Assembly: GCF_000003815.2 (NCBI RefSeq) | Contig: NC_049988.1 | Location: 12,180,917-12,244,916, forward strand | Length of the DNA: 64,000 nt | Direction: 5' to 3' | DNA from: Branchiostoma floridae | Lineage: Eukaryota; Chordata; Leptocardii; Amphioxiformes; Branchiostomatidae | Part shown: positions 35,064 to 63,901 of the stretch, in pieces | Layout of the letters: every line of letters starts with the position of its first letter | Numbering within the stretch: position 1 is the stretch's first letter | Program-made: the position numbers and the translations under genes | Notes under the pieces: generated by a model | The model's input: the letters and a program-made list of their open reading frames with translations, nothing else | Told to the model about the DNA's origin: nothing | Database searches by the model: none

Positions 35064-35127
35064 ATGGGAGGTTCTTACTTCTCGACCCTCTGTCTGATAG
35101 TGTTCTGTTTGGCTTCAACCGTCGGAG
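35064..35127 (+). CDS. VWDE-like: VWDE-like exon 1: signal peptide
   Basis: ATG at 35064 opens [20 protein letters not shown], a typical hydrophobic signal sequence with small residues at the likely cleavage point. No other ATG lies upstream in this frame before a stop. Donor GGAG|gtaagt, phase 1. Confidence 0.85.
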
Positions 35128-38100
35128 GTAAGTTTGTTAACGTTCATAGTTATTATAATAAATTTATATGTCATGATGCAATGTCATCGAGTTCTGTAGT
35201 ATAGATATGTACGATTTCTGTAGTATAGATATATAACTTTACCATGCCCATGTGAAATCGAAAAAAATAGAATACAAACGTCATGTTTATTACTTAACGT
35301 AAATTGTAGTTTCATGTATGCAGGATTTTTTAAAGTCCATGTTGGTTTACAAATTTTCGAGTAATGTGTTCTTTGAACTCTGACGGATATTCGATTTGAT
35401 AATGACACTCTTAATCAAACCAGAAAACCCTCGGACTGGGAGGACGTTGAAATCATGAATAAAAAGGTCTCGAGAAAAAATAGCACGGACTCATGATCCA
35501 CTCATGTAGTTACAGCATTAGCGAAGTTTAGTGTCGTTGAAGTTATTATCATCTGACGTTTTCTAAAGCAAAGTATGGTGGTTGTTTTGCTATTGGCAGT
35601 AGAAAAATATCTATTAAGTACTGTTTTGGGACTGCTTTAGATTCATTATTTACATTGAGTGAATTTATGAAACCAAATACTAACTTAGCAAATCTCCATT
35701 TACCGCATATATGTGAATATGTTTTGTACTTCAATGTATCTACGGAGAAGCTTTGTTAATGCCTTGAAGAGAAGGACCAAAGTGCAGTTTCAATAAACAC
35801 TATTTATTTTTTTAAATGCATCGAATCTTCTATGTCAGCTGTAGAGTTCTGTAACAAAATACCCCATGACTCTGGGAAGGTAGTGTTATGGTGAAACTAT
35901 CCAAAAGTTTTCTAACTTATAGATGACACGAAGACCAAGGTCAGATATCCTTCAGACGTTAGCTTATATGTTTTGTGCTTGTAGTTAAAACACAAGCGGG
36001 TAGTCATATCTTTCAACGTGTTCCTGCCGAATGTACACGGGAAGCTGAATTTGGAGCCAATTACGCACGGACACCCGTCCTTTGCTTGCTCTCTGCCTTG
36101 CTACACTTAGCCCGGTGAGTGGCGAGGGCGTCCGATGATGTTTTTGTAACCCTATCGTCCGTGTGAACATTCTGTTACCCCGGCCGACGTACGGTCAACA
36201 CGTACCCAAACAAACGCACAGCAAAGACTTCATTCAGGCCTTTATTGTGAGTAGCGAAAAGAGTTGATATGCACCATAGACTCCCAGGGAATGCTTCAAT
36301 GAAAATATTTAAAGCCCTTTTTGGGAGGGGGGAGAAGAATTCGTATTCAGGAAAGTTTTTACATATTTTTCCTGAGACTGTAGTAAAAATGCCGATAAAT
36401 TTTGCAATTTGACAGTTAGTTTCACAAATGATTAAAATAATGAAGGCGGAAATAGAAATGCTGACCGTATGCGTGGAGAGACCTTCCTTGAAAACAAATG
36501 AAGGGAAGCAAAATTCTCAAAATTTGGTGATGATTTGAAAGGTACATTGAATACACGTGAGAAATGTCAGAAATATAGCTTATGCATGGGATCTTGTCCG
36601 TACGTACATGTAAATGTGGAGGCTGACCATACGTCTCTTTATGCTACATTAAGATTTCTTTTTTTAGAGTGGTTTTGTAATAGGGGCGTCTATGATACCC
36701 CTATTCCAAATGTGGTTATGTCGCACTTAACATTCAAGGCATCATCACCCTAGTATGCGTTGCGTATTCGTCACGTTTGCTAAATCTTTCACATAAACGT
36801 TTGATATGTACGATCATGCATACATACTTGTGAATGGTGGAATATCGATGGAACATGAATTCGCTTGGCCATATTTCAGCCGCTGAAAAAATAGGACCCG
36901 GAAAAAGTTCGGAATAGCAGTCTAGAAAAGCAGCACAGCTTGTGCTGTCATTTTTAAAATTATAGGACATGTTGATTCGGCTAGCTGGCTTAAGTCACAA
37001 TTCCAAAGCGAGGCCCGGCCGACAGCTTGCGGGAGCGAAAAGAATGACATAGAATACATCAAAATACACAAAATAAATGTCAAAATAACATTCATGGGCA
37101 TGATTTGTGTATATTCTAGGTATACATTCTAATATCTTGTTTCTTAATCCTTGCCGGGCCCCGTTTTGGAAATGTGACCTAAGCCTAAAATGGATGGCCT
37201 CTTCTGAGAGCCCAAAACGGATGCGAGTGTGCGAATAAAAATGGCCAGAATGTTGCCTTCATTGTGGAATATAACCAGTCAGTAGGGTTTTAAAAATGAG
37301 TAACACAAAGAATGGTATACTGAACAATAGATTTTCGTCTGTACGACTCTTAAATACTCATTGCTAACAATAATGAACTTTGATTTTTCGTGTCCGCAAC
37401 CAGCCCGGTCGGACCCCTGTCGGATGGGAAATGTGACTCTGGCATTGGCCTACGTCACATTTTCTACCCGGGTCCGATCCCGACCGGGCTGTTTGCAGAA
37501 ACGAAAAATTTAACTTTATGCCAATAAATATGCACATTGCATACTGTTGAATTATTTTCGGTCCGCGTTGTGCTGTTGTTGTCTTTCATATCAAACTTAT
37601 CATTCCCGAAAGCTGTCCGACTGGGCCCCATGTGGAAATGTGACCCTGGCATTACTGATAACCATAGTCCTCTTGTCCACGGTAGGTGTCAACATCGCCC
37701 GGGGGAAGACAACGCGCCAATCCAGCCAGTGGGAACAGGGTGCTGCTCGCCGTGCTGTAGACGGGAACACCAACACCTACTGGGGCTCGGACTCATGTAC
37801 ACACACCGAGAATGAGGACACTCCCATCTGGTGGGTGGATCTTGGTCAACCGTACAGCATTGACAGGTATGTACACAGAATGTGGAGTCCATCATTTATA
37901 CGGGTTCGGTGCGAATTACGTCAGATCGAACATCGCCGAACAAAGTTTAAATTCGGCTAGACCAGCCGCCACACCATGCATGCCAAGAGTTCTATGCAGT
38001 TTTTATTTCCTTCCGCGAGAGAAAGTAGTCCGTTCCATGACTCCGGGTGTCAACACCCCTCACATGACAGCTTGTCGCTGGAGTATACAACTGCGTATCT

Positions 38101-41100
38101 TCTTAATTTCAAGTAATTCACAGTATTTTAGCCTCCTTCTTAGCTCATATAGATTTTTGAACCGATTGTGTATCGTTTAACTGTCACAAATGCGACCCAG
38201 AATCAGGTAACTTTCGCGCAAATTCCCCTGTTGCTTTGATTCTGTTGTAGATTTCAAACCAACAGGAAATCTCCTGCGCAAGAAAGAGCAAACCTTCTAG
38301 TTTCTGAAAGTATAAGATTTATCAAGGATTTTTAGGGCGTAATGCATTTGCCCCGATATTCCGTGAAGTCATGTCATAATTTTGATTCCAGAATAGAACG
38401 CACCGGGTTTGACGATTCAGCAATTATCCAACCGGGACAGCTCCTCTCTCCATAAATCTTAAAGTTTATGACCGAAATTTTGTTAACGATGGTCCCAAGT
38501 TTATGACTTCCAAGTTTCAAGTAAATATACCAAGCTGAACTGATCTAAATCTAACTTCAAAATTTCTAACTGACTGCCGTAGCGAACCGCGCGCCGTTTT
38601 GAGACCGTTGTACGTCCCATGAACCCCGGGCGTCGGGACTACCTACCAAAAAGCTTGTCGCTCGAGTTTACAACTATGTACAATAAATATTTCATCACGT
38701 TTACAATTTTTAACGTTTCTATTTTACTCCTACGTTATTTTTAAACCGACTTTTACCTGTACCCGTTTGATGATATGATCTGAAATCAGTTGAATTTAGC
38801 ACAAGTTCCCCGCTGCGTTTTACCTTGCAGCAGATTTCAGAACGAAAAGAAATCTAGTGCGTAAAATAGATCGAAGTCTCTTCTTTCAGGTTGTGTATGG
38901 CATATTATCAATTTCGAGGGCGAAAAAGGCTTAAATTTGAACCGCGCGAGGCCACCTCATCCGAGGCGTCAGAAAAGGAACGATTCAGCGCTGGCATCAG
39001 CGCCCGTTCCACGGAGCGCATGCCGGACCCGCACCATTGTATTTACGTACTAGTTACCGTAAAACTAAGATACCATTTGCTAATTCACTCCGTCTTCACG
39101 TGTATTTTCCTTTAGGCATCCTTTGAAAACACTGGAGAGTACATTGGTTCCGATACTTGTGTTTAAAGTCGACTGCACTCGAATCAACCAAACCAACGAC
39201 TTGTGACATTTGGATTTAAAACAGTCGAAAAGGTGACCTCAGTAAACATGGAATTACAAACCTTCCCAGATTTCAAACCAACAAGGTTTTCACAGGAGGT
39301 ATAGTAGAAGATTCAACAATTCTGTCGCACTAGTCATTGAAAAAAGAATCGAATGCGTAATGCATTTGCCCCGAAATTCAAATTCGTCAAAATTCAGCTC
39401 AGTATGGCACCACCATTTTGCCAATTTCATCGTGTAACAAATATGATCAGGAAACTAGACATAATAGTTGTAAAAACCCACAAAAATGGATCATATCGAG
39501 ATTACATGATATTCCTATATAACAGATATAACACAGTCTTGGTAGAAAAGCCGCCAATCAGGTCTAAAGCAGCTGTAAAACTGGATGAAATCCATNNNNN
39601 NNNNNNNNNNNNNNNNNNNNNNNNNNNNNNNNNNNNNNNNNNNNNNNNNNNNNNNNNNNNNNNNNNNNNNNNNNNNNNNNNNNNNNNNNNNNNNNCCTAG
39701 CCCTAACCCCAACCCTAACTCTAACCCTAACCCTAACAGTAACCCTAACCCTAAGCCTAACCCCAACCCTAACCCTAACCCTACCCCTAACCCTAACCCT
39801 AACCCTAACCCTAACCCCTAACCCCTAACCCCTAACCCTAAACCTAACCCTAACCCTAACCCTAACCCCTAACCCCTAACCCTAAACCTAAACCTAAACC
39901 TAACAGTAGCCCTTACCCTAACCCTCATGTACACACACCGAGACGGAGGACACTGCGACCTGGTGGGTCGATCTTGGTCAACCGTACAGCATTGACAGGA
40001 ACGTACGCAGAATGTGGAGTCCGTCATTAATTGCAATATACATACAATAAAATACCAAGTATCATGAAAACCCATCCACAGGTTCTCGAGTTATGCTCTT
40101 GACCTACATTAAGACCCACAAACACGAACGAACTCATATCCAATTTCCAATTAAGTTAAAATCACTGATCCACAAATTGTTGTCAAAAAAGATCTCTGCT
40201 TCTATAAAAAGAAGTCTTTGACTTTGACTTGACTTAATTGACGAAGAGACAAGTCATTACAAGGGTCTGCCTAGGCAGCTTGGGGCTGGTAGCGGCAGAA
40301 CCTACAAAAATGCGGACGAACATACAAAGAAAGTCAAATCCAACCTTTCTAGATACAGCCAACACTAGTATTCGATTAGCCTCCTTTTACGATATTTTAT
40401 CACTGTTTATTGTCACATGTTTCTACCATATGCTTGCAATAGCTTCAAAAAGCTAGGGTCAGGGATAGGTTTAGGGTAAACCTTTAAACATGCATATCTC
40501 GAGAACAAAGCACCAGTTTTCTACGATCTTTTTACCAATCAACGAAGTACCAAGACACCTTTCCAATGATAGCAAGTTTCCTGACTTTAAAAAAAGGCTA
40601 CGGTTATTGTCATGGTAAGGGTTAAGGTTAGAGTTAACTATTAAACACGCATATCTCGAAAACAAAGCACAAATTTTCAAAGTGGTTTTCACCAATCAAC
40701 TATGTACCAAGAGACCTTTATAATACCAAGTTTCCTGACTTAACAAAAAGGGTAAGGTTATTGTCAGGGTAAGGGTTAAGGTTAGGGTTAGGGTCAAACC
40801 TACACGCATATCTCGAGAACAAATAAAGCACCAATTGTCAAAGTGGGTTTCACCAACCAACTAAATACAGAGACACCTTTCCGGTGTCACTATATCTGAG
40901 TTTACAAACATCTATCTTCAAAAAGCTAGGGTAAGGGTTAGGGTTAGGGTTAAACTTAAAACACGCGTATCGCGAGCTCGAGAACAAAGCACCAACTTTC
41001 AAAGCGCTAATTTTTCACCAATCAACTAATTACCAAGAGACCTTTCCAATGATACCAAGTTTGTCGACTTTACAAACAAATAGATTAGCCTCCGGAATGA

Positions 41101-44100
41101 ACTATGAAATAAGCTTTCTTTTTGACACTCCACAGAGTGGTCATCTTCAACCGCCAAGACGAGTGTTGTTGGGGACGAATCAATCCTTTCAACATCCACA
41201 TCGGGGATTCTGACCAGGTCAGCACGAACCCCAAGTGTGGTGGTGATCATGAATTCGGCAGCCAGAGCCAGAAGTCGCTTTCCGTTCCCTGCCAGGGCAT
41301 GCGGGGACGGTACGTGGGAGTACGTCTTCCCGTTACCTCCAGGGCACTGACCCTCTGCGAAGTTCAAGTATTTCCGGGTAGGACCATGCTACCTTCACTT
41401 CACGTGTGTATGTACTAGAATAGTCACCCTGGGAACTACAGAAAGACAGGAAATGGAGTTCAAAGTTGGTAGGATTAGTAATCCATAAGCCTTGTGTGAT
41501 AATGACGTTTTCATGTTGTAATTGCGGCATCTTAGGCGTATACAAAATGTATACGTATGTACGCTTATTCAATGCACCTTTATACAAAATGCTGACCTAA
41601 CAACGATGCCACGGGCACTGAGCACACTGATACAATCAATATCCTCACGAAACCTGAACAAGTAAGATATTGAAACAGTTTCTGTTTACGTACCTTATGA
41701 CACATGATAGAGAAATTACTTCCTGCGAAACGGAAACCTTCAGTCCACAACCGATTGATTGTCGACACATCTACAACTGATTGCCGACATAATTACAACT
41801 GATTGTCGACATGCCTATAGCTTACTAGTATCCTATTTCAGAGAAGCTACCTTGATCTCCACGAGAATTTCTCAATTTCCATTTCGGTTATGAGATGATA
41901 CATGTATCCATATCTTTATTTCTGAAGTCAATTACTGGCACCGGGTGTTCGCGACTGTAAGGGGGACAGGGCAGGATGTGTACGACGCCTGGACAGCCGG
42001 TGCTGGTGCAGACATTAAACACGACAAACACCCCATGGTCGAGCAGTGGGGCTCGTTGGATATCGATGAGGTAACTTTGCCTGTCTTTTTTTAGGCCGTT
42101 TGTTTGTATTTCTGTCTGTCGGTTGGTATCTCTGACTGCCTGTCGGTATGTCTGTCTCTATGGCTGACTGTCTATCAGTTGGCCTATCTGTCTGTCTGTC
42201 TGTCTCTGCCATGTCTGTCGGTATGTCTGTCTGTCTGTTTATCGGTGGGCCTGTCTGTCTGCCTCTGTCTGTTTGTCTGTTGGCCTGTCTGTCTGTCTGT
42301 CTGTATGGCGGCTGGCTGACTGTCGGTTGACCTGTCTGTCTGTCTAACTTACTATCTGTCGGTTGGCCTGTCTGCCTGTCTGTCTGTTAGCCTGTCTGTC
42401 TATATGTCTGACTTACTATCTGACAGTTGGCCTGTCTGTATGTATCGCTGGCTGGCTGATTGTCAGTGGCCCGTCTAGGTTGTTAGTATGCAGCACTTCC
42501 TTAGTCATTTTGTATTGTCTCATTTTCTTATAGTGATTCATCCTTGTTGTTTGATTCTAAGCTCATGGCATAATCCACCATAACTCAAGCGAAACTCTAA
42601 TAACAATGTTCTACAAACAGTTGTACTTAGTAATACGTTAAGCTTGTATGTTTTAGAATCAGAAGACTGTATCACTGTGCTCCCAGATAATGTTCAAACA
42701 TTACCAAGCATTGTTCGAGAATCAAACTCCTATCTATTAACTTCCAACAGGTGAAGATGGTATTTGAGTCTTCTGTCCAGGAGATAGAGCTCGTCTTCAA
42801 TGGGCAGAACACCAACAAGAACAACTGGTTTACCAAGAACCGCCTGCGGACGTCGCCGTGGAACGACATCAAATCAGAATCCACAAACTATTTCTCTATC
42901 GAAGGACACTCAGATCTAAAAAGGTAACATCATGATACTACTACTCTGTTTCCAAACTAAAGCCTCTTGGAACTTTGTGTGATTTGTGTACGCCCATAAT
43001 AACTAGTGTCGGATAGTGTAATAACTAAGCGCACTTTCACAAACATCCCGTCCATAAGTTTTACACGCAAGGCTTTCGCATTTGTCGCGCGATAGTTTTC
43101 AACAGAACTATCAATATTTGTTAGGCTATGTTGATATGATTGTATGGATGACATCATGTAGGAACACAAAAAAAAACTGATGTGAGCATATGAATGAAAA
43201 GTTTGGCCAAAATATTTGCCTTCATCATGAAATATATATGTAAGTGGTTTAGAAGGTGGAACAAATGACTGAACATACAGACTAAGGTATACCGAACAAT
43301 AGATTCTTCATTTTTCTTCTTTTAAATCTTCGTCTTTGATCTTGGAATTGATATTGGAATTAACCTTGGCGATATCGTTTTTGCAATATTCGGCATACTT
43401 TTGCTCATTTTGCATCTGCTTTGCACGATTGGATTTTTTTAATGGCTGAAAATTGATGCACGCGCTGATGTCATCCATGTAATAAAATTAAAATATTATT
43501 GTCAAATAACAGCAAACTAGCATGTCACAAAATCAAGCGAACATCACAGACATTGCTTACCGTCCAACATGGCGTAAACATTCAGTTCTAACCACGGAAT
43601 CACGGAACGAATGTAACAACAACTTCCTCACGGTCTAGAACATACCGTGAACCATTTGTTGTACTGGGGCACACAACGGTTGTCGTGCCGAGCCACCACC
43701 ATAGCCCATTTGGCCGATTCCTTGCATCTGAATACCACGTCGAGCCCAGCGTGAAGTGCATTAGTATCGACTTGTCCTTTTGCAAGTATTGGGGTAGTTT
43801 GAAACATGATACACTAAAGAGAGATCAGTTCAATAACCGAATTGGAACGACAATAGACACTGACGGGTCGCCATTTTCAAAACTGCCGCCTTGAGGTCAA
43901 AGGTTGTGCAGTGATGCCAACTGACGAACTGTTTAGGCATTGCAGAGTAATATATTGCCCTGCCAAATATTCTTAGGAAAAAGTTACAACTTATGTGACT
44001 TAGTCTCTATTTAAGTTCTTGAATAACATAGTTTATACATAATGTTATATGAATTACTATTGCTAAACTTAAAAAAACGACCAATGATGGTATTGTTGAT

Positions 44101-56100: not shown

Positions 56101-59100
56101 TACAAAACGATTGAGATGCGTGTGATATGCGTATCGAACGCACGACTGCGTATGAAAAATGTCAATACGGACGTCCTACGTGTACGGACTTGATGTACAC
56201 GACACTGTTGAACTATCATGCTAAGACCAACGTTGGTATTTGCTTGCAAAAACATATGATTCATTCAGGGCTATGTACCGATGAATGGCAATACTATCTG
56301 CCGTAGTAACTTCTTGTTTTGTCCTTGCTAGAATTCCGCGGGGAGAGAGTCTGTTCGACGTTGAGTGTCCAGAAGAAGTCACCAATCCGCTCTCCGAGTC
56401 ACAGTTCTGCACGTGTGGGAACAGGGTCGAGTGTAGCCCGACCAAAACTCGCAAAAACAACCACTTGAACCCAGCTTTGAACGTCATCCATCCGCTTCAA
56501 GATGAAAGAAACAAGAACTGCACTCCGCCACCGGAAGTGATCGAGGAAGATCCGGATCTGTACAATGACGATGTTTGTGACACGGAGTACGAGTTCGATT
56601 ACGCTGAAGACGAAGAACCCGAAATTAACGACGAATGGCCGACCCCGAACAGAGGGATCACGGAGGAGGAAGCGACAGGAACGTGTCAGCAAGGAATCTT
56701 GAACCTGACCATCGCTGAAGACTGTCGGGATGTGTACGGTGTTGATATATTCTCCGGAGTGGACTTCTGTGTAGCAGATGTGAAAGTGAGTTCTCTCCCT
56801 TATGATGGAAACTTGAGGACATTGACGTGTTTGTTCTTTTACACAGCCAATCAAGTCTCACCTGCTTACGTTTCGATGCCATCTTCCTTGGAGCTTCTAA
56901 CCGGAGTGATGCTTCTCGCAGCCAATGTAGGTGGCGCTTTTGCGACGAGAACACAATCTTAAATGTATCGAAGCATCACTCCAGAGAAGTTCTGAGGAAG
57001 TCTGATAGGCATCGAAATATAAAAAAGTGAGACTTTACTGGATATGTAAAATGACACTCCAATGTCTTATCTGAGGAAATTATTTTCGGAAATGAAGAAA
57101 ACTCGTTTTCCAATTTCACCAGTCTAAGAATAAGAAAAAAATGGTTAAAAGGAATCTGTACACAGATTTTGAATTGTTTTCATTGGTGTACCATTATTTT
57201 CAGGTGACTGAAGATTTCCAGTACGTTGACATCATCGTACAGAAGATTCAAGCAGAATGTGCTGAAAAAGCCTACAACAATGTCAGTCTGTACGAGACCA
57301 ATGATGACGGAACCGCGAAGCCTCCAGCCTTCATCACTGAGAACGTGTGCCCGCGCCAGTGTAGTAACCAAGGCCGGTGTGTGAACAGTACGTGTGAGTG
57401 TAACCATGGTTACACGTCTGCAGACTGCTCCATACAGATCGGCAGGCCTCCAGTCGCGCTGGAACTCCCCTCGGACGGGCTGTGTGACGTCAGGAGTCGG
57501 CCTTGTATGAAGACGTCCTTCTTCGCTGAAGACGTGATGAACTCGGAGAACCTGACCTGTAGGGTCACCCAAGTTCAGGTTCGCTTGGTTCTCTTAACAT
57601 TTCTTTTGCATACATTGTAATAGGTGCGTTGCCCTTTTCTATGATCATTACAATGGTTCTTTCTTCCTCTTTGCCCATTAGATACAAGATGGGATAAAGA
57701 CTGAAGCCAACTCCAGCGGCCGGTCCGAGGCGACGTTCCGCAGTTTTGGGGAGGTGTCGTGCGCCCTCCCCAGGTCTCCTGTACGGGACGGGACACCTGA
57801 CACCAAGGAAGGCGCGGTGGCTCACGGGATGCTGGTGTCCGTCAGTAACGATGGAGAACGGTTTAGTGAGGAGTTGTTCTTCACCGTGTACGACTCCGTC
57901 TGTCAGGAGTGTACTCAGGGAGGGGATTGTACTTGGAAGGTACGTTTTAACGTATTGTCGTAAGTCTCCTAATGTCTTTCGTCTTCTGGAAGTTTTTGGA
58001 GAATTCAATTCTCAAGTGACACGACGATTGTCTTAGATGGAAACTTTTTTAATTGCTTTAGAAAATCCTTTCTGTAGACCATTGAACTACAAAGGTCACG
58101 TCTATGACTAAGCGGTGTTTGATTTTGTCCACAGCCGGATACCTGCATCATTCGAGGGCACTGTTTCAGGAATGAAGACCCGAATCCGTCCAACATTTGT
58201 GAGCAATGTGTGCCGAGTCTTTCAGGTTCAACATGGTCAGATCGGCCGGGTAGCTATCTCCTACGTACCTTTTTTGTAGGATAAAAACTGAAAACAAAAT
58301 AAGTCAACAAGTGTACATTTTCAATGATCCGTTGAACGTTAGCCTCGTGAAAGTATGAATTTTGTTATCAAGCAAATCATTGAACTTGCTATTTGTTCCA
58401 TTTTTAGACAACGAAGCCCCAATCTTTACAACGGACTCCACTATCACAAAACTTCCCGATGAAGATCTGACCATTGATTTGGGTGCTGAAGATCCCGAAG
58501 GAGGGCCTGTGACGTGTAATATGACGTCATTAGGTGACCATGGCGTTACCCTACAGCCAAGCGGACAGCTGGACTGGACAGCAGGTGACGTCAGCTCTAC
58601 TTCCATCAACGTCACAGTTGAAGACGAATGCGGCGCGTCATCCGAACAGACGTTCCACCTCACCACAATGTCGTGTCCTTGTGAGAACGGAGGGTCCTGT
58701 GTGCCCGATCCCGACATGCCCCGCGGACAAGGCTCCTACAGCTGCGTGTGTCCTTGGTACACCGGAGCCGTGTGTGAAACTGAGCTGGACGAATGTCAGT
58801 CCAGCCCCTGTGCAAATGACGGAACTTGTATCGATCTTGTGAACGGTTATAACTGCACCTGCGCGGAAGGATACACCGGTAGTCATTGTGATGTGGAGGT
58901 TGAGGACAAGTGTGCGGCCCTGGACCCGTGTTTTCCCGAGGTTTCTTGCGTCAACCTGGACGATGGAGGCTACTTGTGTGGGCGGTGTCCTGAGGGATAC
59001 TTTGGAAACGGATACGAATGCAAAGGTACAGCACTGCAGCCTTCTTCTCTAGTGTTGATTTTGCTATTCATAACTGTTCAAAGACTATGGCCCTTTGTAC

Positions 59101-62100
59101 TACGGTTTCTTCTTTCAGATTGCATTCATTGTAGTAGATATGACGTAAAACAGACTATGTAGACAACCTACCGTCAAAAGAAGGTCAACTTTTGTTACAT
59201 TTCGGAGCTCCAGTGCTTGTGTAATTTTACACAGATACGGATGAATGTGAGTCAGATGAACATGGCTGCCAGCATGGCTGTAACAACCTTCCCGGAACAT
59301 ACGAATGTACCTGTCCGGACGGCTTCGTGCTGATTGGTGAAGACTGTTTAGGTAAGACTCCAATCTCAATTTCATTCATTTTCATCTATCATGTCTTCGT
59401 AAGTGTGTGTGTATGAACAGCTTAACTCGAGAAGGCGTGAATAGATTTTATTGGTATTCGGTACGTGGGTAGGCCTGTTTTTGAGGTCCAAATAGGAGTA
59501 AATTTTGCATGGCCCCCTACCTTTTACGGTATTGCAGCGGGACTTCAAGTTTTTATATTTCTGGTTCAAGACATTCTATGGTCATGACATTTGAGTGATA
59601 GATAGCTCTTGTGGCGGAGAGGAAGTATTGTAGGTTTAGTTTCCCTTGCGACTGCTTTTTAAGTGCAGTAAAAAGCAATTCCTGATTTTTTAAACAGATG
59701 TGGACGAGTGTGAGGCAGACATCGACGAGTGTTCTCACGACTGCACCAACACGGACGGGTCCTACACGTGTGGATGTCCGGATGGGTACGAACTGGACAT
59801 AGACGAGATGACCTGCATCGGTATTCATTCAGATTACATTCGAACTTGTCTATGCGTCTGAAGCGACCGCCACTTTTTGAAGGATGGCTTTGTTGATCAA
59901 AACAGATACGGATTTTTTAAAACTGTACTGATTTCACGCTGATATCGTATCTGTTGAATATGCAATGTTTAAAACGTATTCACCTTTATATTATCTATTT
60001 ATATATCAATAATACTCTGTCACTAGCCTATAGATATGATCTTCGATCACCTTTATGAATGTGATCATAATTTCTATCTATTGTTCAGATCAGAGATGTC
60101 CATCTCGAGTAAATATAACTAAAGAATCTGTCTGTTCTCCAGACATAGACGAGTGTAGCCAGGATGACCCCGACTGTCATGAGTGCACTAACACCCCCGG
60201 CAGTTATGGGTGCTCCTGTAGGGACGAGTACGTGGTCGGGGACGATGGGACATCATGTGAAGGTTAGTTTCACTTCGTACGTTCAAACGAGTATAGGACA
60301 CTGGAAACAATTCGGCTTCCTTTGACGTTTAGATTATACGTATTTCAATATCTTAATGGGTTGCGATTGAGGATGATTTATCCGTATCGTAGATGAATTG
60401 CCCTTCGCCGTAACACACCAGCTTCGCAGGCAAGGGCGCGGTGGCAACTGTCCATATTATACTACACGAACTGGCATTCCTAATCTTAGCACAAACGAGT
60501 TCCGCTTTACGATAGTTGAAAAACGAAATGATGATTATAGTACACTTTGAAATCTGACGAAACCTAACCAATATGGCGTCCAGGCTGCTTGTTTAAAAAA
60601 CACGAAGAACAATTTCCTTACGTAAATAAGTATTAGCATGTATAATTTCCTGGGTGTCGTTGAAATACGGATATCGGAATGCTTATCTTTTTTGCTTTGT
60701 TCTTTCGTCTTATTGGTAAACAGATGTGGACGAGTGTGCTGAAGGGCTTGACGAGTGTTCTCACGAATGCATTAACACGGAAGGGTCCTACACATGCGAC
60801 TGTCCTGAGGGGTATAATCTTACCTCTGACGGAATGAACTGTACAGGTAATCATTTCGACTTTTTCGTCACACCTTTTCCAAAAGCTTGTCTTCCTCATC
60901 AATACATCTATTTACCTGTTAGGGTAGGTTTGCGCGTGCGTATATATTCAAGTCCATAAAAGGTCCGTATGGAATTCATGGCCCCTACCAGGCTCCACGG
61001 GTCACTAAAAAATAATAGAAATCGGACATATAGTTTATTAGCCAGATAATATGTCAGAGGAGCTAGCTGGTCGCAAACCAAACCCCTCGGACAGCTAAGT
61101 GACATGTTAGCGTCTATATTTGTCCAATTTCTAGTAGTTTCTAGCGACCTATGAAGCCTGGAAGCCTTGAATGTATAGGCACGTGTCAACCCACCCTTTT
61201 ATCCGATATGTGTGTCAATGTGAGGATTAATTTACGGCGTTTCAGTCACGAAACAACCTATGATATCCTTTGTGCTGTTTTATTGTTGTTTTACATTGCC
61301 AGAAGGTGGACATTATCGATGACATTTATTGCTTTATTCTTTAGACATAGATGAATGCAGTCTTGACACCATGGACTGTCACGAATGCCAGAACACCCAG
61401 GGAAGTTTCGAGTGTTCCTGTATGGACGGGTATGAAGTCCATGAGGACGGGACATCATGCCAAGGTCGGTACAGCTAAACGAATCAGATATACAGTACAA
61501 GTCACTTGATTGCAAAACGGATTAGACTACTGCACACGTCTGCAGGGAATTCCAATATCCATAAACCCGGTGCGGTCCAGCTGGATAACTTCGCATTGTT
61601 GCACCACCCGGATGATTGCACGAAATGCGCAGGCAAATAGGGTTTGCAATTAAACGGCTTCTATTTTGGTGTATACGGTACCATAATTCATCGACGGTTC
61701 CTATAACCGGCCTATAACCACCAACTGAACGAGTCCCGAGTCGTAAGATCCCCTATTCACTTATAGTTGACAATGGCCTGAGAACGAGATTTATACCCCG
61801 GATGCGGCTAGTCTATCGGGTATTAATGGCAAAATTGAGCCTTCTGGTTGGTCGAAATTGTCTGGCTATATGATAATATGAAGTAGATGCCCTCATCACC
61901 AACACTACAATTTTCTATAGTCCCTGTAGACTCTGCATTTGGTCTTATATGGTTTTCCTTTATTTTTCAACAGACGTGGACGAATGTGCTTCGGATCTTG
62001 ACGAGTGTGCTCACGACTGTACCAACACAGACGGGAACTATACTTGCGACTGTCGTGCAGGGTTTGAACTTGACTCAGACGAAAGGGCCTGCAACGGTAA

Positions 62101-63901
62101 TCATTCCAATAATCTATTTGATCTGATACAACTGAAAACAGATGTCGTGATTTGGTTTCTTGGATCAATAGACAGTTAAGCGTTAACTTTTTTTTCATTT
62201 TATCCCTTAACAGACGTGGACGAGTGTGCGGCAGACATTGACGAGTGTTCTCATGACTGCACCAACACTGACGGGTCCTACACCTGTGAATGTCCGGATG
62301 GGTACGAACTGAGCTCGGACGAAAGGAACTGTAACGGTAACGATCCCCTACTTTCCAACCAGAGGTCCGGCTTCGGCTTTTGTTTGACGTGTTTCGGCGT
62401 TTTTGTCAGACTTTTCTATTTTGCCCCCTTTCCTTCATATCCACTGGTCATCGGAACAAAATAGAAAGGTCGGCAAAAACGCCTAGCCTGATTAAATCCC
62501 GTTTACAGCAGCCCGCCCAACAACGAGACAGCAGAGGTTGTGTTACATTGACTAAAACGCCTAAAATCCGACGGAACCGTACCTTTGCTTGCAATCGGAG
62601 AGCAGATCTCCATTGTATGTCTTTAAGGTTATCTATTATCCAGTAGTCTCTTGTTGTTAACATCAATAATATCAAGAAACGCTATTTTGAAAAACTATTT
62701 TGTTTTATCTCTAATTAGATGTTGACGAATGTTCGTCTTCGAGTCTCAATGACTGTTCTCACGAATGTACCAATACGGACGGGTCCTACACGTGCGGATG
62801 TCCCGATGGGTACACACTCAGCTCCGACGACAAGACCTGCAACGGTAAATCTGAAATAATAGTTTTGCTCCATATTGTTATGCTTTGTTTGTTTTTGCAT
62901 GTCAAATCGGCCACCATTTAACTTTTGTACTGCAATTGGACGGATTTTCATCATATTTTTAATTCATTTTCAAACAGATGTAGACGAGTGCGATTTGGAG
63001 CTGGATGAGTGTTCTCACGATTGTACCAACACGGATCTATCTTACACCTGTGAATGTCCCCAGGGATACCAACTCGGGTCGGACGACAGGACATGTGAAG
63101 GTATATACGTTACCAAGTTGACTGTTTTATTTTGCATTACAAAGTGACTTGAATTGTCATCTAGTAGCCAGTGCGTGCATGTTTTCAGTTATATTCGTAA
63201 TAACCTATTTCTTATCCTTCCACAGACGTGGACGAGTGTTCCACTAATGCCCACGAGTGTTCTGACGATTGCACCAATACGGACGGGTCCTACACGTGTG
63301 CATGTTCTACAGGGTATGAACTCAACTCGGACGAAAGGACATGTGACGGTAGGTATATCTGAAAGAAAAAAAAATATAAGTAGTCAGTTTCATTTGAAGC
63401 CTTACTCAGTCCACAATATAAGAAATGGGGAACATTTTTTGTACTCTGACTTCTTTTCTTTTTATATGGATTCTACCAGTATTCAAGAAACTTTTTCCCT
63501 TTTCAAACAGATGTAGACGAGTGTTCCACTGACACCCACGAGTGTTCTGACGACTGTGCCAATACGGACGGGTCCTACACCTGTTCATGTCCTACAGGGT
63601 ACGAAATCGGCTCGGACGAAAGGACGTGTAACGGTAAGTATTTGAAAGAAAAAGAAACACGTTTAAGTAGCTGGTTTCATACTTGCTAAATGGTACCGTG
63701 TACGGAATGTTCATTTTTGTGGTACTTTGACTTATTTTCTTTCTATATGTATTCAAGAAACTATTTTTGTACACACAGATGTAGACGAGTGTTTCACGAA
63801 CGCTCACGAGTGTTCTGACGACTGCACCAACACGGAAGGATCCTACACGTGTGGCTGTCCTACAGGGTATGAACTCGCCACGGACGGACTAAACTGTAAC
63901 G
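35064..63901 (+). CDS. VWDE-like: VWDE-like secreted protein with N-terminal fucolectin (FTP) domain; 36 exons in window, 3' end beyond
   Basis: Large extracellular protein; about 2130 codons join in frame over 36 exons. Approximate residues: signal peptide 1-22; FTP lectin-like F5/8C domain 23-161; unnamed domain 163-339; EGF 340-374 and 375-415; D8C 416-573; linker and beta-rich region 574-840; VWD 841-1034; acidic region 1035-1186; EGF-containing region 1187-1311; cysteine-rich region 1312-1435; cadherin-like module and three EGFs 1436-1641; twelve EGFs 1642-2130, all or nearly all calcium-binding. From D8C onward the order follows vertebrate VWDE. The FTP domain and following block are not in the vertebrate protein as I know it. 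The final exon ends with a donor, so the gene continues. FTP suggests fucose-type glycan binding; a matrix or innate-immune role is inference. Confidence 0.87.
36988..37185. mobile_element. MITE, family 'GGGCCCGG', copy c
   Basis: Left ggcttaagtcacaattccaa; right ttttggaaatgtgacctaag. Interior has the family's cacaaaataaatg segment. In intron 1 of the VWDE-like gene. Confidence 0.65.
37447..37650. mobile_element. MITE, family 'GGGCCCGG', copy d, next to exon 2
   Basis: Left ggcctacgtcacattttcta; right tgtggaaatgtgaccctggc. A right-half copy of the same family abuts it at about 37370-37446. Its edge is about 35 bp before the exon 2 acceptor of the VWDE-like gene, so it supplies part of the acceptor's upstream context. 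Confidence 0.7.
37686..37866 (+). CDS. VWDE-like: VWDE-like exon 2: first half of FTP domain
   Basis: Acceptor cacggtag|GTGTCAAC, donor GACAG|gtatgt, phase 2 out. Contains [31 protein letters not shown] and HTENED...[12 protein letters not shown], classic fucolectin/tachylectin-4/pentraxin-1 signatures including the fucose-site histidine. Confidence 0.92.
37945..39360. repeat. Duplicated intron 2 block, two diverged copies
   Basis: Landmarks (gcttgtcgct.gagt.tacaact, gcagatttcaaaccaacagg, gcgtaatgcatttgccccga) recur in the same order starting near 37945 and again near 38580, ending at 38339 and 39355. Non-coding. Confidence 0.55.
39596..39695. other. Assembly gap (100 N)
   Basis: Exactly 100 N, the usual placeholder for a gap of unknown size. 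It lies in intron 2 of the VWDE-like gene next to telomere-like repeats. Confidence 0.99.
39696..39925 (-). repeat. Telomere-like CCCTAA array with variants
   Basis: About 230 bp of CCCTAA with variant units (CCCCTAA, CCTAAA, CCCCAA, ACAGTA). It begins at the gap and ends directly on the exon 2 copy. Interstitial, since genes continue on both sides. Confidence 0.93.
39924..40026 (+). pseudogene. Partial copy of VWDE-like exon 2
   Basis: Aligns to 37792-37896 of exon 2 and the start of its intron. The reading frame is open ([20 protein letters not shown] then YSIDR) but the 5' half is missing and the donor is changed from AG|gtatgt to AGgaacgt. Presumed non-functional unless the rest lies in the gap. 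Confidence 0.8.
40447..41092. repeat. Tandem repeat of 140-175 bp with embedded TTAGGG units
   Basis: Four units starting near 40447, 40590, 40744 and 40918. Each has a run of (T)TAGGG/GTAAGG variants, then acgcatatctcgagaacaaa, then caccaatcaact and acctttccaatgataccaag. The last unit ends just before exon 3. Orientation of the G-rich strand is opposite to 39696-39925. Confidence 0.8.
41136..41377 (+). CDS. VWDE-like: VWDE-like exon 3: second half of FTP domain
   Basis: Acceptor ctccacag|AGTGGTC, donor CCGG|gtagga, phase 1 out. [20 protein letters not shown] carries the Arg-x-Asp and Cys-Cys pair. The second Arg is one residue further than in the canonical fucose motif (RxDx4R). It ends [20 protein letters not shown], the standard FTP C-terminus. 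Confidence 0.92.
41928..42070 (+). CDS. VWDE-like: VWDE-like exon 4: start of unnamed domain
   Basis: Acceptor tttctgaag|TCAATTAC, donor GATGAG|gtaact, phase 0 out. Encodes [20 protein letters not shown] followed by [20 protein letters not shown]. An alternative acceptor at about 41838 would run into a stop in this phase. Confidence 0.85.
42090..42475 (+). repeat. TGTC microsatellite/minisatellite in intron 4
   Basis: About 380 bp of degenerate TGTC units mixed with gactgtcggttggcctgtc-type blocks. Apparent Ser/Val/Cys-rich ORFs are only the repeat translated. Confidence 0.9.
42751..42923 (+). CDS. VWDE-like: VWDE-like exon 5: unnamed domain
   Basis: Acceptor cttccaacag|GTGAAG, donor AAAAAG|gtaaca, phase 2 out. 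Contains [20 protein letters not shown] and [12 protein letters not shown]. Trp/Asn/Phe-rich, no recognised motif; it looks like a beta-sandwich. Confidence 0.87.
43121..43490. mobile_element. Inverted-repeat element in intron 5
   Basis: Left ttaggctatgttgatatgat, continuing gtatggatgacatcat; right end gatgtcatccatgtaat is its complement. Interior (aatatttgccttcatcat, accgaacaatagatt) matches 37187-37345. Left-end matches also occur near 90, 15448 and 23941. Confidence 0.6.
44323..44489 (+). CDS. VWDE-like: VWDE-like exon 6: unnamed domain
   Basis: Acceptor tcattgcag|ACGTTTC, donor AACAACG|gtacgc, phase 1 out. Contains [20 protein letters not shown] and [20 protein letters not shown]. Two cysteines in this exon may pair. 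Confidence 0.87.
44946..45128 (+). repeat. CT-rich low-complexity tract in intron 6
   Basis: About 180 bases of ctctct-type sequence on the gene strand. Apparent ORFs here are low-complexity artefacts. Confidence 0.9.
45354..45401 (+). CDS. VWDE-like: VWDE-like exon 7: end of unnamed domain
   Basis: 48-bp exon, acceptor gcattcag|ATAATGG, donor CATCTG|gtaaat, phase 1-1. Encodes [16 protein letters not shown], a likely closing beta-strand. Microexon supported by consistent phase on both sides. Confidence 0.75.
45960..46064 (+). CDS. VWDE-like: VWDE-like exon 8: EGF domain 1
   Basis: Acceptor ttatacag|AGAGATGC, donor TGTGACG|gtacgt, phase 1-1. Reads [20 protein letters not shown] then [15 protein letters not shown]. 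Short EGF without the calcium-binding DxDEC start. Confidence 0.88.
46310..47260 (-). pseudogene. Degenerate antisense LINE copy in intron 8
   Basis: On the minus strand, RT blocks appear in order but in different frames: [28 protein letters not shown], then [14 protein letters not shown] (the GVPQG motif), and a C-terminal segment [20 protein letters not shown]. Frameshifts and stops break it. CR1/Jockey-like by layout; family not settled. Confidence 0.75.
47634..47756 (+). CDS. VWDE-like: VWDE-like exon 9: calcium-binding EGF 2
   Basis: Acceptor tgtttcag|ACGTCGACG, donor TGTGATG|gtaaga. Begins [20 protein letters not shown], with the C-x-N-x4-F-x-C-x-C Asn-hydroxylation consensus. Confidence 0.93.
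49166..49372 (+). CDS. VWDE-like: VWDE-like exon 10: D8C domain, first half
   Basis: Acceptor cctccacag|ACGCGTG, donor CCAACTG|gtaagg. [32 protein letters not shown] and the WMNGSHP ending are hallmarks of the uromodulin/GP2/OIT3/VWDE D8C module. Confidence 0.93.
49376..49531. mobile_element. MITE, family 'GGGCCCGG', copy e
   Basis: Starts tctaatccggggcccggccg immediately after the exon 10 donor and ends aaatttggaaatgcggcgtt. The outer left end is missing, so it is truncated at the splice site. Confidence 0.55.
49543..49747. mobile_element. MITE, family 'AAGCAGAGGTTA', copy 2
   Basis: Ends gatattactctctaagcag and ctttgagaggagtaatatc are inverted. Interior tctgtaccgttttccgttgg and cataaagaaaactgtacg match 7296-7463. 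A further relative lies at about 62351-62600. Confidence 0.7.
49815..49905 (+). mobile_element. SINE body fragment
   Basis: tgcagcccaagggcttttga and gagagatgggcg resemble the body of the SINE at 9905-10180. No Pol III boxes remain. Confidence 0.45.
50072..50338 (+). CDS. VWDE-like: VWDE-like exon 11: D8C domain, second half with Tyr-rich insertion
   Basis: Acceptor aatacgtag|ATGACG (weak pyrimidine tract), donor GTGCAG|gtacgc. [20 protein letters not shown] and [18 protein letters not shown] are D8C-like. The usual short link to the last CxxYC is expanded by a stretch containing [18 protein letters not shown] (50242-50295). Confidence 0.9.
50561..51978 (-). mobile_element. 5'-truncated LINE with open reverse-transcriptase ORF
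   Basis: Non-LTR retrotransposon inserted antisense in intron 11 of the VWDE-like gene. An uninterrupted frame of about 470 codons (50570-51982) carries RT motifs: [55 protein letters not shown] and the catalytic YADD. A C-terminal [10 protein letters not shown]...GAPRTRWMD region follows. The N-terminus, including any endonuclease, is missing. The 3' end on the minus strand is a TGAG-type short repeat. tcaaaaaca flanks both ends (50552-50560 and 51979-51987), a likely 9-bp target duplication. Not a host gene; clade (RTE-, CR1- or Jockey-like) not resolved. Confidence 0.9.
52145..52204 (+). CDS. VWDE-like: VWDE-like exon 12: Cys-rich linker
   Basis: 60-bp exon, acceptor atctacag|GCGATAG, donor TGTGGAA|gtgagt. 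Encodes [20 protein letters not shown], matching the CPxGE linker that follows D8C in VWDE. Confidence 0.87.
52383..52663 (+). CDS. VWDE-like: VWDE-like exon 13: beta-rich region before VWD
   Basis: Acceptor gtttgcag|ACATATT, donor AAGGAC|gtaagt. Contains [20 protein letters not shown] and [16 protein letters not shown], resembling the VWDE region between D8C and VWD. Extracellular NVT sequons present. Confidence 0.9.
52919..53008 (+). CDS. VWDE-like: VWDE-like exon 14
   Basis: Acceptor tctctaag|GTTTCTTG, donor ATTGAG|gtaatg, 90 bp, phase 0-0. Encodes [20 protein letters not shown] then [10 protein letters not shown], like the VWDE CxVR...YFAGI segment. Confidence 0.87.
53180..53548 (+). CDS. 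VWDE-like: VWDE-like exon 15
   Basis: Acceptor cctaataag|GCCGGAGG, donor TTAGCA|gtgagt, 369 bp, phase 0-0. Contains [20 protein letters not shown] and a CHVRF segment conserved in VWDE before the VWD domain. Confidence 0.9.
54008..54087 (+). CDS. VWDE-like: VWDE-like exon 16: start of VWD domain
   Basis: Acceptor tttttcag|GTTCGCAC, donor CACCGG|gtatga. The GDPH motif of VWD ([15 protein letters not shown]) is intact. Confidence 0.9.
54451..54532 (+). CDS. VWDE-like: VWDE-like exon 17: VWD
   Basis: Acceptor tttttccag|AGCTTGG, donor TTCGAA|gtaagt. Encodes [20 protein letters not shown] then RNFE, the VWD beta-strands after GDPH. Confidence 0.9.
54559..54739. mobile_element. MITE, family 'TAACGCTAGTTCACC', copy 2
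   Basis: Ends taacgctagttcacctttat and ataaagatgaactagcatta are inverted, with gatatc-type inner complements (agggatatcac / gttgatatccct). In intron 17 of the VWDE-like gene. Confidence 0.75.
55227..55436 (+). CDS. VWDE-like: VWDE-like exon 18: VWD
   Basis: Acceptor ctatgaag|GTACACTC, donor ATCAAG|gtagga, 210 bp, phase 0-0. [20 protein letters not shown] and [17 protein letters not shown] match VWDE VWD. Confidence 0.92.
55627..55838 (+). CDS. VWDE-like: VWDE-like exon 19: end of VWD
   Basis: Acceptor tctttgtag|ATTTCGATG, donor TTGGCA|gtaatt, phase 2 out. The [15 protein letters not shown] motif is the conserved VWD C-terminal signature. Confidence 0.92.
55928..56210. mobile_element. Inverted-repeat element in intron 19
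   Basis: gcgcgtatatcaagtcc near the left and ggacttgatgtacacg near the right are complementary; the centre folds again (tacgcaggcgtac / gtatgcctgcgta). The outer motif resembles the TTAA family at 27580. Boundaries approximate. Confidence 0.5.
56332..56785 (+). CDS. VWDE-like: VWDE-like exon 20: acidic Cys-containing region
   Basis: Acceptor ccttgctag|AATTCCG, donor TGTGAAA|gtgagt, 454 bp, phase 2 in, 0 out. The centre is strongly acidic with tyrosines ([20 protein letters not shown] then [12 protein letters not shown]). The C-terminal half ([20 protein letters not shown]) resembles the VWDE segment after VWD. Confidence 0.87.
57204..57578 (+). CDS. VWDE-like: VWDE-like exon 21: contains an EGF domain
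   Basis: Acceptor attttcag|GTGACTG, donor GTTCAG|gttcgc, phase 0-0. Contains EGF-like [27 protein letters not shown] flanked by VWDE-like sequence. Confidence 0.9.
57682..57939 (+). CDS. VWDE-like: VWDE-like exon 22
   Basis: Acceptor gcccattag|ATACAAG, donor TGGAAG|gtacgt, 258 bp, phase 0-0. Contains [17 protein letters not shown] and [20 protein letters not shown] then [10 protein letters not shown], a TIG-like fold seen in VWDE. Confidence 0.88.
58135..58249 (+). CDS. VWDE-like: VWDE-like exon 23: Cys-rich segment
   Basis: Acceptor gtccacag|CCGGATAC, donor CGGCCGG|gtagct. Encodes [20 protein letters not shown] and [18 protein letters not shown]. Confidence 0.87.
58408..59025 (+). CDS. VWDE-like: VWDE-like exon 24: cadherin-like module and three EGFs
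   Basis: Acceptor attttttag|ACAACG, donor GCAAAG|gtacag, 618 bp, phase 1-1. [20 protein letters not shown] with [11 protein letters not shown] is cadherin-like as in VWDE. Three EGFs follow ([10 protein letters not shown]..., [16 protein letters not shown]..., [16 protein letters not shown]...). Confidence 0.92.
59235..59351 (+). CDS. VWDE-like: VWDE-like exon 25: EGF (117 bp)
   Basis: Acceptor ttacacag|ATACGG, donor TGTTTAG|gtaaga. [20 protein letters not shown], phase 1-1. Confidence 0.92.
59698..59820 (+). CDS. VWDE-like: VWDE-like exon 26: calcium-binding EGF
   Basis: Acceptor ttaaacag|ATGTGG, donor TGCATCG|gtattc. [20 protein letters not shown] with GSYTCGC; 123 bp, phase 1-1. Confidence 0.93.
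60143..60262 (+). CDS. VWDE-like: VWDE-like exon 27: calcium-binding EGF with possible alternative start
   Basis: Acceptor gttctccag|ACATAG, donor GTGAAG|gttagt. [20 protein letters not shown], 120 bp. A second good acceptor at 60088 (ctattgttcag) is in frame and would add 18 residues ([18 protein letters not shown]). Confidence 0.9.
60724..60846 (+). CDS. VWDE-like: VWDE-like exon 28: calcium-binding EGF
   Basis: Acceptor gtaaacag|ATGTGG, donor TGTACAG|gtaatc. [20 protein letters not shown]; 123 bp, phase 1-1. Confidence 0.93.
60920..61195. mobile_element. Diverged relative of the TTAA MITE in intron 28
   Basis: gggtaggtttgcgcgtgcgt, tatattcaagtcc, taccaggctccacgggtc and tttgtccaatttct match 27580-27885 in order. 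Its ends are eroded and no TTAA pair is evident. Confidence 0.6.
61345..61464 (+). CDS. VWDE-like: VWDE-like exon 29: calcium-binding EGF
   Basis: Acceptor ttctttag|ACATAG, donor GCCAAG|gtcggt. [20 protein letters not shown]; 120 bp. Same DxxDCHEC subtype as exon 27. Confidence 0.93.
61536..61665. mobile_element. Diverged pogo/Tigger-like MITE remnant in intron 29
   Basis: The reverse complement (agaagccgtttaattgcaaa, ... caacaatgcgaagttatcca) aligns to 25372-25549. One end is missing. Confidence 0.55.
61974..62096 (+). CDS. VWDE-like: VWDE-like exon 30: calcium-binding EGF
   Basis: Acceptor ttcaacag|ACGTGG, donor GCAACG|gtaatc. [20 protein letters not shown]; 123 bp, phase 1-1. Confidence 0.93.
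62214..62336 (+). CDS. VWDE-like: VWDE-like exon 31: calcium-binding EGF
   Basis: Acceptor cttaacag|ACGTGG, donor GTAACG|gtaacg. [20 protein letters not shown]; 123 bp, phase 1-1. The intron before it is only 117 bp. Confidence 0.93.
62351..62600. mobile_element. MITE remnant in intron 31, 'AAGCAGAGGTTA' family
   Basis: ccaaccagaggtccggcttc near the left, facing aaaatccgacggaaccgtac and ctttgcttg near the right. cagcagaggttgtgttac inside suggests a nested or rearranged copy. Confidence 0.4.
62719..62844 (+). CDS. VWDE-like: VWDE-like exon 32: calcium-binding EGF (126 bp)
   Basis: Acceptor ctaattag|ATGTTG, donor GCAACG|gtaaat. [20 protein letters not shown]; one codon longer than its neighbours. 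Confidence 0.93.
62978..63100 (+). CDS. VWDE-like: VWDE-like exon 33: calcium-binding EGF
   Basis: Acceptor tcaaacag|ATGTAG, donor GTGAAG|gtatat. [20 protein letters not shown]; 123 bp, phase 1-1. Confidence 0.93.
63226..63348 (+). CDS. VWDE-like: VWDE-like exon 34: calcium-binding EGF
   Basis: Acceptor ttccacag|ACGTGG, donor GTGACG|gtaggt. [20 protein letters not shown]; 123 bp. Very close to exons 35 and 36. Confidence 0.93.
63511..63633 (+). CDS. VWDE-like: VWDE-like exon 35: calcium-binding EGF
   Basis: Acceptor tcaaacag|ATGTAG, donor GTAACG|gtaagt. [20 protein letters not shown]; 123 bp, recent duplicate of its neighbours. Confidence 0.93.
63779..63901 (+). CDS. VWDE-like: VWDE-like exon 36: calcium-binding EGF, last in window
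   Basis: Acceptor cacacag|ATGTAG, donor GTAACG|gtaagt. [20 protein letters not shown]; 123 bp. The good donor shows the gene continues to the right. Confidence 0.93.

Follow-up and report, generated by a model that had tools for sequence, protein, structure and literature searches.

In vertebrate VWDE, the D8C domain stands directly after the signal peptide and the protein is secreted. For the F-type lectins, the key survey is said to be that of Bishnoi in 2015. The available parts of two papers link the VWDE family to vertebrate appendage regeneration (PMC9117669, PMC8930769); in the first, the EGF region of Equinox is described as resembling VWDE and the VWD domain is given as the mark of VWDE, and in the second the D10C of VWDE is aligned with GP2 and UMOD, the D10C cysteine pattern being that of GP2 and uromodulin. 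For Branchiostoma floridae, more than 70 F-type lectin clusters with diverse partner domains are reported, and a Nematostella lectin is combined with CCP, EGF-like and other domains, with no VWDE-type partner named in the part of the paper available to us (PMC5712786). Lectin mosaics in amphioxus are thus already known, and the arrangement described here, an F-type lectin and a further domain, X, on a VWDE-like stalk, may be a variant not named in the literature searched. That search covered titles and visible abstract parts, and it likewise returned nothing for VWDE with Branchiostoma or for F-type lectin with SEA and von Willebrand; the gene may well be annotated somewhere already.

The gene lies in a 64,000-nucleotide stretch of the B. 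floridae genome, hereafter the window (C10:12180917-12244916; 513,431,437 bases in 431 contigs were searched). On the plus strand, 36 exons form a stop-free chain of 2122 codons from 35064, the ATG of exon 1, to 63901, the last exon base ahead of a donor, and all 35 junctions are GT-AG with agreeing phases. A sequence-only reading of this DNA had described a continuous in-frame series from a signal peptide to EGFs, and this was borne out, although its count of 11 exons gave way to 36 inside the window. Because splice sites were picked with phase in view, phase agreement alone is weak support, and small exons (7, 8 and 14, for example) were located by intron reading only. For exons 2-6, 9 and 10, each chosen site had the top score, alone or tied, within the stretch inspected; the one exception was the acceptor of exon 5, which ranked second. 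Three sites scored below zero, the acceptors of exons 11 (-2.4) and 18 (-0.8) and the donor of exon 19 (-0.8). The domain order is signal peptide, F-type lectin, X, a truncated EGF and an EGF, D8C/D10C, a Cys linker, a VWDE-type Ig region, VWD and EGFs. The domain search that the sequence-only reading had proposed as a check, run with Pfam on this chain, returned the F-type lectin (F5_F8_type_C_2, 4.8e-22; F5/8 type C, 3.7e-13), D8C_UMOD (9.7e-9), VWD (3.7e-8), Big_9 (3.3e-7) and several EGF families. Since exon 36 ends in a donor, the gene runs past the window.

From the computed exon chain, domains and paralog comparison, we infer a single transcript, a surface location, sugar binding and a role in recognition, and we put the probability at roughly two in three that this is one gene for a type I membrane mosaic protein, in which a lectin and X form a head, most likely glycan-binding at the cell surface, on a VWDE-like stalk. 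The F-type lectin and X would make up an N-terminal recognition unit, and the stalk would run from EGF, D10C, Ig, VWD and an EGF array to SEA, a transmembrane helix and a PPPPPY tail. The observation itself is real, the one-gene reading is likely, and the function is best described as a candidate recognition role.

The order D8C, VWD and EGF array is that of VWDE, as the sequence-only reading had stated and as both the exon chain and Pfam confirmed; a candidate VWDE-like Ig region, with a sub-threshold match, lies at the corresponding place between D8C and VWD. In contrast to VWDE, in which D8C comes first, the signal peptide and D8C are here separated by the lectin, X and two EGFs, and a SEA and transmembrane end is added. 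The predicted SEA and transmembrane segments are the reason that we file the gene as VWDE-like and not as VWDE. Equinox differs in having TSP1 domains, whereas the present gene carries the VWD domain that the available part of PMC9117669 gives as the mark of VWDE.

The signal peptide is encoded by exon 1 (35064-35127), which has a phase-1 donor and DNA homology to the signal-peptide exon of an inverted paralog, B. The two halves of the lectin follow in exon 2 (37686-37866; triad residue His61 and the cation motif AVDGN) and exon 3 (41136-41377; Arg88, Asp90, CysCys and Arg96), both supported by splice scores and by the match to striped bass FBP32, and exon 2 also by Pfam. Lectin residues 26-160 matched FBP32 at 1.4e-48 over its whole two-repeat chain and at 7.2e-24 in the best single stretch, and, with homology spanning the whole domain, the assignment as an F-type lectin is real. 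It shares with AAA and MsaFBP32 the complete domain, the His-Arg-Arg triad (His61, Arg88 and Arg96), the adjacent cysteines and the AVDGN cation motif in exon 2, which agrees with h2DGx. The His, Arg, Asp and Arg of the fucose motif are all there, but with a spacing of HX26RXDX5R the strict published spacing is not matched; His and Arg are 26 residues apart instead of 24, and there is one extra residue between Asp90 and the CysCys of exon 3. The published motif is HX24RXDX4(R/K), and the available part of the same source notes that some domains deviate (PMC5712786). In all 10 other aligned lectin copies, drawn from the eight best loci of the genome, RxD and CC stand without the extra residue. 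With the triad and cation motif intact but the spacing deviant, binding is a plausible prediction.

A 100-N gap (39596-39695) lies between the two lectin exons, which raises the question of whether the signal peptide and first lectin half were joined to the rest by an assembly error. In favour of this, the gap is inside the lectin and adjoins a (CCTAAC)n repeat and a truncated exon 2 copy; against it, exons 2 and 3 together make one complete in-phase lectin domain, exon 1 matches the first exon of a paralog, and the window is N-free from exon 3 on, and we regard an artefact as highly improbable. The truncated copy (39924-40032), which is 90% identical to the end of exon 2 plus 33 intron bases and abuts the repeat and the gap, was considered as an alternative lectin exon and rejected, as it lacks its 5' part and has GA in place of the donor GT.

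Domain X, of 177 aa, is encoded by exons 4-7 (41928-42070, 42751-42923, 44323-44489 and 45354-45401), whose borders are common to other X loci. Genome-wide, X has 99 exon-level matches (E up to 0.1), which include three from the lectin-headed gene itself and form 39 clusters, 34 of them with at least two exon matches. At the X loci examined the matches break at identical exon borders, and 43 columns are invariant across 10 aligned members, the X of the present gene included; at one of these loci, L036, a sushi-like stretch was seen by eye after X. None of the 10 members matched Pfam at E up to 1, comparison of the X profile with the PDB gave nothing below E 0.14, and a search of a bacterial and archaeal collection gave no relative among 85 pattern matches. 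An AlphaFold2 model of X alone had a pLDDT of 28 and was set aside. Given the genome-wide clusters, the common exon borders, the invariant columns and the lack of a Pfam match, X is read as a conserved animal domain that is absent from Pfam and has no name. Introns within X contain long TCTG and CT simple repeats (42111-42410 and 44952-45045).

Skipping of exons 2-7 would keep the frame, since the phase-1 end of exon 1 fits the phase-1 starts of exons 8, 9 and 10, and the lectin and X exons might therefore be an insertion left out of most transcripts, the usual product being signal peptide-EGF-D8C. Exons 2-7 nevertheless retain intact frames, splice sites and triad residues, and the identical breaks of X matches at other loci also argue against a bypassed insertion, which we consider rather unlikely. 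Poly-A-type hexamers occur within 1.5 kb beyond the read-through stops after exon 3 or exon 9, and short isoforms terminating after either of these exons are possible.

The stalk begins with a truncated EGF in exon 8 (45960-46064) and a full EGF in exon 9 (47634-47756), both recognized by Pfam, followed by D8C/D10C in exons 10 and 11 (49166-49372 and 50072-50338). In the predicted sequence this domain has ten cysteines, at residues 418, 442, 464, 470, 494, 503, 504, 517, 568 and 572, arranged as in the D10C of GP2 and uromodulin. A Tyr-rich insert follows the eighth cysteine, ahead of the ninth, and the best PDB match of the domain is uromodulin (1.2e-15). It resembles the decoy module of uromodulin and GP2 in having an EGF before D10C, ten cysteines and a sequon (NGSHP against NGTHP), and it differs in the Tyr-rich insert and in being followed by VWD and an EGF array, without a ZP module. 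A 474-aa open frame on the minus strand (50570-51994), presumably of the LINE reverse transcriptase type, lies in the intron that separates exon 11 from exon 12. Exon 12 (52145-52204) is a short Cys linker matched in paralogs B and D, and exons 13-15 (52383-53548) encode the VWDE-type Ig region, which is conserved in copies B and D; its Ig_VWDE match between D8C and VWD (E 0.0079 here, 0.00069 in copy D) is in both cases short of the curated cut-off. Exons 16-20 (54008-56785) comprise VWD in exons 16-19, found by Pfam, and a tail with an acidic stretch in exon 20. Exons 21-23 (57204-58225) encode a tenascin/teneurin-type EGF and the conserved VWDE-like core, as identified by Pfam and copy comparison, exon 24 (58408-59025) an Ig-like Big_9 domain with EGFs, also by Pfam, and exons 25-36 (59235-63901) are twelve EGF exons in the exon model, all of phase 1-1.

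The junctions from exons 6-7 to exons 12-13 are all of phase 1, so that the modules around them could belong to either of two neighbours, a lectin-X-EGF gene upstream and a second, VWDE-like one that starts at the D8C exon; signal-peptide candidates ahead of D8C in copies C and D, although weak, would fit such an arrangement. Scanning the window for hydrophobic phase-1 first exons with loose limits gave four on the plus and two on the minus strand, and with strict limits exon 1 was the sole signal-peptide first exon on both strands. When the limits were lowered further, two phase-2 signal-peptide-like candidates appeared inside the intron between exons 8 and 9, a point against the one-gene reading. 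The intron between exons 9 and 10, where a separate VWDE-like gene would have to begin, contains no signal-peptide-like first exon in any phase. The VWDE-like gene of the paralog, moreover, has a signal-peptide exon homologous to exon 1, and in paralog B, too, the exon immediately ahead of D8C is an EGF exon resembling exon 9. One gene is likelier than two because the signal-peptide exon of paralog B is homologous to exon 1 though a different module comes next; a pair of adjacent genes, which the sequence-only reading had named as the result that would overturn it, is disfavoured on the same ground, and we hold it to be very unlikely.

Paralog B is inverted and lies tail to tail downstream. 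In window-continued coordinates its signal peptide is at about 104.8 kb, and exons 9-24 have matches in it in the same order, with 64-94% identity where the sequences align. The two signal-peptide exons align over 53 bp (75.5%, E 3.4e-5), the alignment extending past the donor, and the score of the two peptides was reached in 0 of 2000 shuffles; exon 9 is homologous over 137 bp (79%) to the EGF exon before D8C in B. In place of the lectin and X, the N-terminal slot of B holds, before the EGF, a 124-aa Cys-rich exon on the minus strand (G000:C10, window-continued 99937-100308), here called module Y, which runs from phase 1 to phase 1 (acceptor 9.0, donor 1.9) and had no Pfam match. Exons 2-7 gave no tblastn match in paralog B at E up to 1, its slot containing a 100-N gap (window-continued 101214-101313). 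Between exons 10-24 and their counterparts, dN was 0.129 and dS 0.582 for paralog B (1161 codons), and 0.249 and 1.516 for copy D (1152 codons), indicating that these exons are under purifying selection.

In a further copy, E, located on C5, the VWDE core is 92% identical to that of the lectin-headed gene; the copy also has a weak D8C hit (E 0.005) and, on the same strand, an X, which lies about 20 kb from the core and may belong to one gene with it. A signal-peptide exon stands directly before this X and matches that of paralog B (109 bp, 70.6%, E 1.9e-7), with no DNA match to exon 1. No lectin was found between the signal peptide and X of copy E, where a 100-N gap sits. In copy D, a scan for phase 1-1 exons between the signal-peptide candidate and D8C found none.

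Taken with the homology of the paralog's signal peptide despite differing modules, these copies are most simply read as a single gene family whose N-terminal slot is swappable, and the lectin with X, X alone, or Y seem to occupy this one slot behind phase-1 introns. In the gene described here, the head would sit in the slot behind a common signal-peptide exon, with sister genes filling it with X alone or with Y. The 100-N gaps in the slots of copies B and E make a lost exon conceivable in either, and they also temper a broader proposal, in which the VWDE-like genes would be a family of membrane receptors with a common signal-peptide exon and stalk and with heads (lectin with X, X, Y or none) exchanged by phase-1 exon shuffling, X and Y being undescribed binding domains. 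We regard this proposal as tentative and, on present evidence, doubtful; if true, it would describe an innate recognition system that is fixed in the germline yet swappable in evolution.

The sequence-only reading had proposed a secreted or matrix lectin, and this was not supported once the sequence beyond the window was added (60 kb, then 140 kb more). The full model has 47 exons and 2642 aa and ends in a terminal stop; the eleven exons past the window, eight EGF, two SEA and one transmembrane-tail exon, lie 50 to about 9800 bases beyond the window end, with moderate splice scores for exons 45-47 (2.4-6.9). The SEA domain was found by Pfam at 2.6e-11, and with a 19-residue hydropathy window the top peak of the protein (2.8) fell at residues 2582-2600, the signal peptide coming next. 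The last exon encodes this predicted transmembrane helix and a tail with PPPPPY, which we take to be a PPxY motif. Copies B and D likewise have SEA matches downstream, and the one of B was confirmed by Pfam (5.2e-10). With SEA, a transmembrane segment and a tail in the extended model, a secreted or matrix location is probably wrong and a surface location is predicted. The stalk would then present the head at the cell surface, where its most likely targets would be glycans of microbes, mucus or cells, with fucosylated glycans as the first candidates.

Across the genome, 53 exon matches were grouped by eye; 46 fall into 22 loci with the VWDE-like core, and seven weak ones, limited to the EGF part, were left out. 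That the pairing of lectin and D8C is unique to this gene was considered and rejected, since at two other places (C9:2.97 Mb and C9:18.0 Mb) a D8C hit is preceded, no more than 4 kb upstream on the same strand, by a PF22633 hit. The D8C hits give minimum counts, the split D8Cs of copies A, B and D being absent from them. At the second place (L049, G000:C9:18004800-18006400), inspection by eye showed a lectin-like exon and a D8C exon on the same strand about half a kilobase apart, with a fucose motif that looks degenerate. The suggestion that the fusion may be undescribed is thus upheld by the literature searched, which names no such fusion, and weakened by the lectin-like domain beside D8C elsewhere in the genome. 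The pairing of lectin and X was narrower, as only 1 of the 39 X clusters, that of the lectin-headed gene, had a PF22633 hit within 30 kb on the same strand among the 150 of 647 PF22633 candidates that were scored, split lectins scoring poorly.

At this locus a fucose-lectin-type head is joined to a VWDE-like stalk, and in the VWDE-like genes of this genome the front may be exchangeable as a module. Since the same stalk appears to bear different heads in sister genes, the shuffling of exons for recognition modules becomes directly testable within one locus.

Upstream of the gene, both strands of the window carry fragments of rhodopsin-family GPCR genes (about 560-24412, by Pfam), and one plus-strand exon among them has human KISS1R as its best PDB match (7.5e-28). 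A tRNA-family match of 34.7 bits, possibly part of a SINE, was found in the same region on the plus strand (19386-19457).
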